NCBI GenBank assembly: GCA_016868455.1
Contig: VGGV01000006.1
Location: 1 to 64,000, forward strand
DNA: 64,000 bases
Source: Bacteroidota bacterium
Lineage (GTDB): Bacteria > Bacteroidota > Bacteroidia > Chitinophagales > Chitinophagaceae
Direction of reading: 5' to 3'
Below the pieces are notes generated by a model. It saw only the letters and a program-made list of their open reading frames with translations. It ran no database searches and was not told where the DNA came from. Both the position numbers and the translations under genes were made by a program. The stretch's first letter is position 1; the number at the start of each line of letters is the position of its first letter. Below, piece by piece: positions 24,025 to 24,521 of this stretch.

Positions 24025-24476
24025 CGCTACAAGCCGGGCTATCGCTCCCACGCCTGCCTGTCAGCAGACAGGCTTCCAGTGGGGGAGGAAAGTCCGGACA
24101 GCACAGAGCAATGCACCGGTGAAGAGCCGGGTTCTGCTACGGCAGGAACAGACAGTGCCACAGAAAATAACCTCACCCCCAAACCCCTCTCCACCCGGTG
24201 GAGAGGGAGAGCAAGGAGTGAAAGGGTGAAAATGTGAGGTAAGAGCTCACAGCTTTTGATGGTAACATCATCGGCGGGTAAACCTTGCATGCTGAAATGC
24301 CACATATAGTACCGTTTTGAGGACTGCTCGTCCAAGCCTGCCTACCGGCAGGCAGGGTACAGGGTAGGCAGATTGATCCCCTAAAGTAATTTTGGGGACA
24401 GATAAATGATAGTCTATATCCACTTTTGCCAAGGCTATCGTGGATGAAACAGAATCCGGCTTACAGGCTTCTAGCA
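24025..24476 (+). ncRNA. rnpB: RNase P RNA (bacterial class A)
   Basis: GAGGAAAGTCCGGAC, ACAGAAAATAACC, GTGAGGTAAGAGCTCAC, GATAAATGATAGTC, ACAGAATCCGGCTTA. P1 pairs 24026-24035 (GCTACAAGCC) with 24466-24475 (GGCTTCTAGC); P2 pairs 24037-24043 with 24408-24414. Confidence 0.95.
24171..24211 (+). repeat. dispersed-type palindrome within the P12 region of rnpB
   Basis: CCTCACCCCCAAACCCCTCTCCACCCGGTGGAGAGGGAGAG. Confidence 0.6.
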
Positions 24477-24521
24477 CCTCACCCCCGGCCCCTCTCCGTC
24501 TGGAGAGGGGAGGCGGAGAGG
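24477..24521 (+). repeat. second CCTCACCCCC...CCCCTCTCC palindrome directly after rnpB
   Basis: CCTCACCCCCGGCCCCTCTCCGTCTGGAGAGGGGAGGCGGAGAGG. Confidence 0.65.

Follow-up and report, generated by a model that had tools for sequence, protein, structure and literature searches.

The gene at this locus encodes bacterial class A RNase P RNA (rnpB) and belongs to a 64,000-nt stretch of Bacteroidota DNA, the whole of which is hereafter called the window. The RF00010 model aligns to the gene end to end (model positions 1–367) with a score of 219.7 bits (E = 5.8e-70) against a gathering score of 100 bits, which places it in the family, and this is the sole full RF00010 match in the genome that holds the window (G000; 2.64 Mb in 64 contigs, examined by pattern searches). 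A second candidate in the same genome (G000:C5:116358) was rejected as an rnpB fragment, its score of 20.3 bits (E = 2.4e-4) lying under the cut-off and its position lying within protein-coding sequence.

Palindromes assigned to families A and B, together with one resembling family C, occupy the gene and its 3' border (table 1). The P12 arm reads CCTCACCCCCAAACCCCTCTCC-ACCC-GGTGGAGAGGGAGAG, and its tag pairs with positions 24215–24220; the element that follows the gene reads CCTCACCCCCGGCCCCTCTCC-GTCT-GGAGAGGGGAG, a single base (24476) separating it from the end of P1. An earlier reading made from the sequence alone (the sequence-only reading) had given the sequences and positions of these two elements correctly and had called them nearly identical, a description that is apt for the left 21–22 nt (one indel, two substitutions) and wrong for the loops and right flanks. 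It missed the family B copies in P3 and beside P17, the C-like palindrome in P19 and the loss of a T-run described below. Repeat invasion of this rnpB is real, and it is larger than was first noted.

Table 1. Positions in the window of rnpB and the palindromes at it
Feature	Position	Strand	Basis
rnpB, bacterial class A RNase P RNA	24026..24479	+	RF00010 match; P1 closes at 24475
Family B palindrome in P3	24052..24073	+	Clean 20-nt insertion into GC-TTCCAG loop; absent in relatives; family B dispersed
Family A element forming P12, tag CCTCACCCC plus hairpin, forward	24171..24211	+	RF00010 insertion in P12; genome-wide copies
Family B palindrome between P17 and P16 3' strand	24336..24356	+	Site filled in G127, empty in G143 and G147
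C-like palindrome in P19	24419..24444	+	2 mismatches to family C pattern
Second family A element directly after P1	24477..24512	+	Replaces relatives' terminator T-run

Exactly two occurrences of CCTCTCC-N2-14-GGAGAGG are present in the window (P12 and post-gene), against none in 100 shuffles, and strict patterns place three A/B copies within 500 nt at rnpB, for which P is ~3e-8 when 30 copies are placed randomly and 3e-5 if one-tenth of the genome is open. Tandem copies of A or B were not found in rnpB. In the rnpB alignment, the P3 insertion is missing from G125, G132, G152, G148 and G147, and the B site beside P17 differs in occupancy between G127 and G143 even though their rnpB cores are identical at 232 of 235 positions. 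When the family C pattern (TCCRCCTTYGCYWARGCT..) was searched, other places in the genome matched with 3 mismatches and the control gave none; because the pattern was partly designed on the P19 copy itself, that copy is graded only as probable, and from its sequence it is probably a decayed member of family C.

Downstream of P1, four or more consecutive T are present in 102 of 113 rnpB genes, and three of them (G147, G150, G126) read TAGC-TTTTTT where G000 has the second A element. No T-rich terminator was found on the forward strand after rnpB in G000, nor any T-run past the second A element; judged by the alignment, the post-gene A copy has replaced the terminator T-run. Adjacent to the lost terminator, P1 contains a C-C mismatch (GCTACAAGCC/GGCTTCTAGC, 24466–24475) where relatives have G and read GGCTTGTAGC. 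Recruitment of the element to give rnpB a new 3' end or terminator would fit its location, which is exactly that of the T-run in those 102 genes, and its predicted hairpin of about -30 kcal/mol; however, since no T-run follows, the element is not a canonical intrinsic terminator, and other A copies also lie inside genes, such that we hold recruitment to be doubtful.

Dispersal through the genome, tmRNA and proteins

The pattern CCCTCTCC-N2-8-GGAGAGGG finds family A at 17 places in G000 (14 with a stricter pattern), whereas the reversed control pattern finds none. Alignment of the 17 copies resolves a common architecture, consisting of the tag CCTCACCCC, a short spacer, the hairpin CCCCTCTCC/GGAGAGGGG and a terminal AG; the sequence outside tag and hairpin varies from copy to copy, and in some copies a family B palindrome sits between the two. 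Family B (GCCTGCC/GGCAGGC) has 13 sites in the genome, with no match to its control. The elements are 20–45 nt long.

A second RNA gene is affected. The tmRNA of G000 (G000:C14:49166-49564; L253, 1501–1899) measures 399 nt, as compared with 371–373 nt in four relatives, and the extra sequence (CATCCGCCGTAGCTTAAGCGAAGGTGGAT) is a family C palindrome of ~28 nt in the loop of the model's last stem (the last pseudoknot region), missing from four relatives; it is lacking in G147 and G137. C-like hairpins (CGCC..TTCGCT..AGCT..GGCG) were also seen in P12, the P17 side or P19 of rnpB in G137, G140, G146, G149, G075 and G072; the family C regular expressions are too loose for counting rnpB copies across relatives.

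Open reading frames also hold A or B copies: two in a gene for a nitrilase-family protein and one each in those for dihydroorotase, an amidohydrolase, a serine-hydrolase-like protein and YebC. The two palindromes of the nitrilase-family gene (G000:C10:62681 and 62918; L182, 1411–2277) are in-frame family A copies, and palindromes of the two families likewise lie in frame in dihydroorotase and YebC (G000:C24:3339, L188; C23:27770, L041). Compared with solved homologues, all three of these proteins have ~12–13 extra amino acids exactly at the palindromes.

Capture of P12 across Bacteroidota

The comparison of P12 covered ~113 rnpB genes, drawn from the genus and family of G000 and from GTDB hits. 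The strict P12 pattern matched only G000 in a phylum sample of 398 genomes, and a GTDB-wide scan was therefore needed; 11 of the 16 stretches it returned are RF00010 rnpB and the other 5 are not, and every GTDB hit counted here is RF00010. At least 12 species have family A in P12, in one orientation or the other: it is forward in G000, G084 (Terrimonas pollutisoli), L237 and L248 and reversed in G119, G149, G075, G013, L235 and L243, with a longer P12 variant in L239, L245 and L246 (Bacteroidales). Most relatives have a short, unrelated P12, and every P12 variant is predicted to fold as one hairpin helix. The arm of G147 starts with CCTCACCCC and ends with GTGAAAGGGTGAAAA, and by this likeness the P12 elements of G000 and its relative G147 may descend from a single insertion. 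G130 and G122 have cores identical at 226 of 232 positions, yet their P12 arms are wholly different (91 versus ~37 nt), that of G130 containing a family B palindrome.

A tree built from the rnpB core, with the variable arms left out, requires 11 changes to account for 12 carriers, and grouping the ten carriers of either orientation in one clade is rejected (p-AU 0.0014), as is a clade of forward carriers alone (0.017) or reverse carriers alone (0.049), in searches whose held-clade likelihoods suggest incompleteness. Because the tree is poorly resolved, with few supported branches, it is used only together with the two orientations. On this combined reading of the sequences, P12 has been captured independently and repeatedly in Chitinophagales and other Bacteroidota, and a single origin is rejected.

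Occupancy of P12 also follows the abundance of family A in the genome. Among 80 genomes, the six P12 carriers have 15, 16, 9, 19, 21 and 24 A copies besides those at rnpB and the 74 non-carriers a median of 0 (Mann–Whitney p = 1.2e-5), an association that may be inflated because the set was partly picked for long P12 arms outside the genus. Within the genus, for which sampling is nearly complete, the three carriers have the three highest A counts. P12 is occupied in 6 of the 11 genomes with at least nine copies, whereas random placement predicts ~0.002 hits in all 11, or 0.02 if only 10% of the genome is open. G040 (30 copies), G014 (16) and G088 (15) are A-rich without A in P12.

Probable mode of insertion and alternative explanations

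The sequence-only reading had proposed that a mobile palindrome family colonised a permissive helix of a catalytic RNA. Sequence comparison and structure prediction bear this out, through 17 dispersed copies, filled and empty sites, in-frame protein copies, both P12 orientations, predicted helices and several origins in place of a single one; the opposite pattern, in which no further copies exist and P12 is an ancestral helix shared across relatives, is contradicted by the dispersal of the copies and the variation of P12. We consider it very likely that short dispersed palindromes of at least two, and probably three, unrelated families insert genome-wide and are kept where the hairpin spares the product. 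Tolerated sites would comprise variable apical helices (P3, P12, beside P17 and P19, and the last pseudoknot region of tmRNA), in-frame protein loops and intergenic DNA. In RNA genes, the element would add to or replace an apical hairpin, and in P12 its own hairpin would become the arm. In the forward orientation, the tag is predicted to pair with GGAGTG of the rnpB 3' strand; in the reverse orientation, GGGGTGAGG stands in for the native GGTRAGG, one form of which, GGTGAGG, is native in 13 of 101 non-carriers. Since the asymmetric tag would thus pair with the opposite rnpB strand whichever way it is read, the helix would survive either orientation. Retention in P12 would reflect tolerance rather than benefit.

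As to movement, we infer that the copies are mobilized as DNA by a putative enzyme acting in trans, for which REP/RAYT-like single-strand transposition is the leading candidate. G000 has more than one Y1 transposase gene. The best of them (RAYT-like; G000:C19:35510, L198) is flanked by a different palindrome, ACTCCGCAGGAGT and variants, and this enzyme finds no support as the mover of A or B. One A copy lies ~0.6 kb from a Y1 gene in G103, no Y1 transposase was seen in the A-rich G013 (72% complete), and none of the RAYT loci read is flanked by A or B. Target-site duplications, which together with terminal inverted repeats would mark a MITE, were not seen at the aligned rnpB sites; at the P12 and post-gene sites, host sequence is replaced rather than merely interrupted.

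The sequence-only reading had offered, as its alternative, that rnpB itself seeded the repeats, with copies of an ancestral P12 arm spreading through the genome. Indeed, the reversed tag resembles the native P12 3' strand, of which the non-carriers with GGTGAGG are examples; however, the dispersed copies share only tag and hairpin, and none of the 17 aligned copies has the rnpB flanks ACAGAAAATAAC or TGAAAA, which already disfavours seeding. With several genomes A-rich but without A in P12, with P12 short and unrelated in most relatives and with A present there in both orientations, we regard this origin as scarcely credible. Convergence, by which the likeness would stem from chance plus selection for stable arms in a helix that is a G+C-rich hairpin anyway, is very improbable. 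Native G+C-rich hairpins do occur in P12 and beside P17 of many relatives, from which substitutions could produce one B-like hairpin, but the match takes in the 9-nt tag, which is unpaired, as well as the loop style typical of the family, P12 occupancy tracks genome copy number, and near-identical cores differ in filled and empty sites (G127 versus G143; G130 versus G122).

A more specific proposal is that P12 is a real target site and not only a tolerant one, the elements preferring rnpB for the tag complement, GGTGAGG, in the 3' strand of its P12. The excess of P12 copies over random placement, the native occurrence of this motif in non-carriers and the exact junction of reverse-oriented copies at GGTGAGG are consistent with targeting; conversely, forward-oriented copies leave the motif unused, the tag in dihydroorotase is part of the insert and not of the host sequence, and B and C enter rnpB without such a motif. 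Targeted insertion is, in our judgement, unlikely. The same low likelihood attaches to the broader notion that P12 of Bacteroidota is a true family A landing site, reached via the tag complement in its conserved 3' strand, with an essential ribozyme serving as a safe harbour that lets a short hairpin element persist within a lineage.

Comparison with known palindromic elements

The sequence-only reading invoked a cyanobacterial precedent. In heterocyst-forming cyanobacteria, the P12 region of RNase P RNA reportedly contains STRR repeats that are shared with the rest of the genome. STRR are short tandem repeats, in contrast to the single tagged hairpins of several families and in several helices described here, which do not qualify as such. 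The double-hairpin elements and GC clusters of fungal mitochondria are likewise mobile hairpins, which genes for structured RNAs accommodate in their variable regions; they are organellar, differ in sequence and, as far as is generally known, lack protein-coding copies of the type found here. REP elements share the arrangement of a short tag and hairpin, dispersed, intergenic and sometimes genic, but bear GTAG or CGTC tags (PMC3733652). Among our 17 A copies, which have CCTCACC as the common tag, GTAG is absent and CGTC occurs once, at no conserved position, and with the tag CCTCACCCC the family falls outside the REP superfamily.

The closer precedent is that of the Rickettsia palindromic elements (RPE), which are reported to occur in tmRNA and M1 RNA (Ogata et al. 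2002, via PMC2229807) and for which in-frame protein copies have been described (PMC10969869). As with RPE, several palindrome families share a genome, and conserved proteins hold in-frame copies that keep the frame and appear as insertions against homologues (the nitrilase-family protein, dihydroorotase and YebC). The RNA genes hit are likewise the same two, rnpB and tmRNA, and the insertions in P3, beside P17 and in tmRNA have empty sites in relatives. RPE are alphaproteobacterial and 105–146 bp long, however, so the 20–45-nt elements of Bacteroidota do not match them in length, and they are probably unrelated to them in sequence. Unlike RPE, the present elements occur as several copies in one rnpB and have captured P12 independently across Bacteroidota.

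P12 is described as having no universally conserved nucleotides and as dispensable in some cyanobacteria (PMC2858038). A literature search with few subscription journals covered did not turn up these Bacteroidota families within RNase P RNA, nor multiple families per ribozyme or repeated P12 capture. The kind of phenomenon is known, and the host group, the number of families and the recurrence are new; the case itself is confirmed and well supported. Additional arms in RNase P RNA are usually regarded as structure that drifts slowly; short repeats that also occur elsewhere in the genome can exchange them rapidly. Within a single bacterial phylum, the erratic lengths of P3, P12, P17 and P19 thereby find a ready explanation, and the arms offer a natural set of insertion experiments on a ribozyme that is essential. 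What had been described mostly in Rickettsia now extends to free-living Bacteroidota, in which the same two RNA genes are hit.
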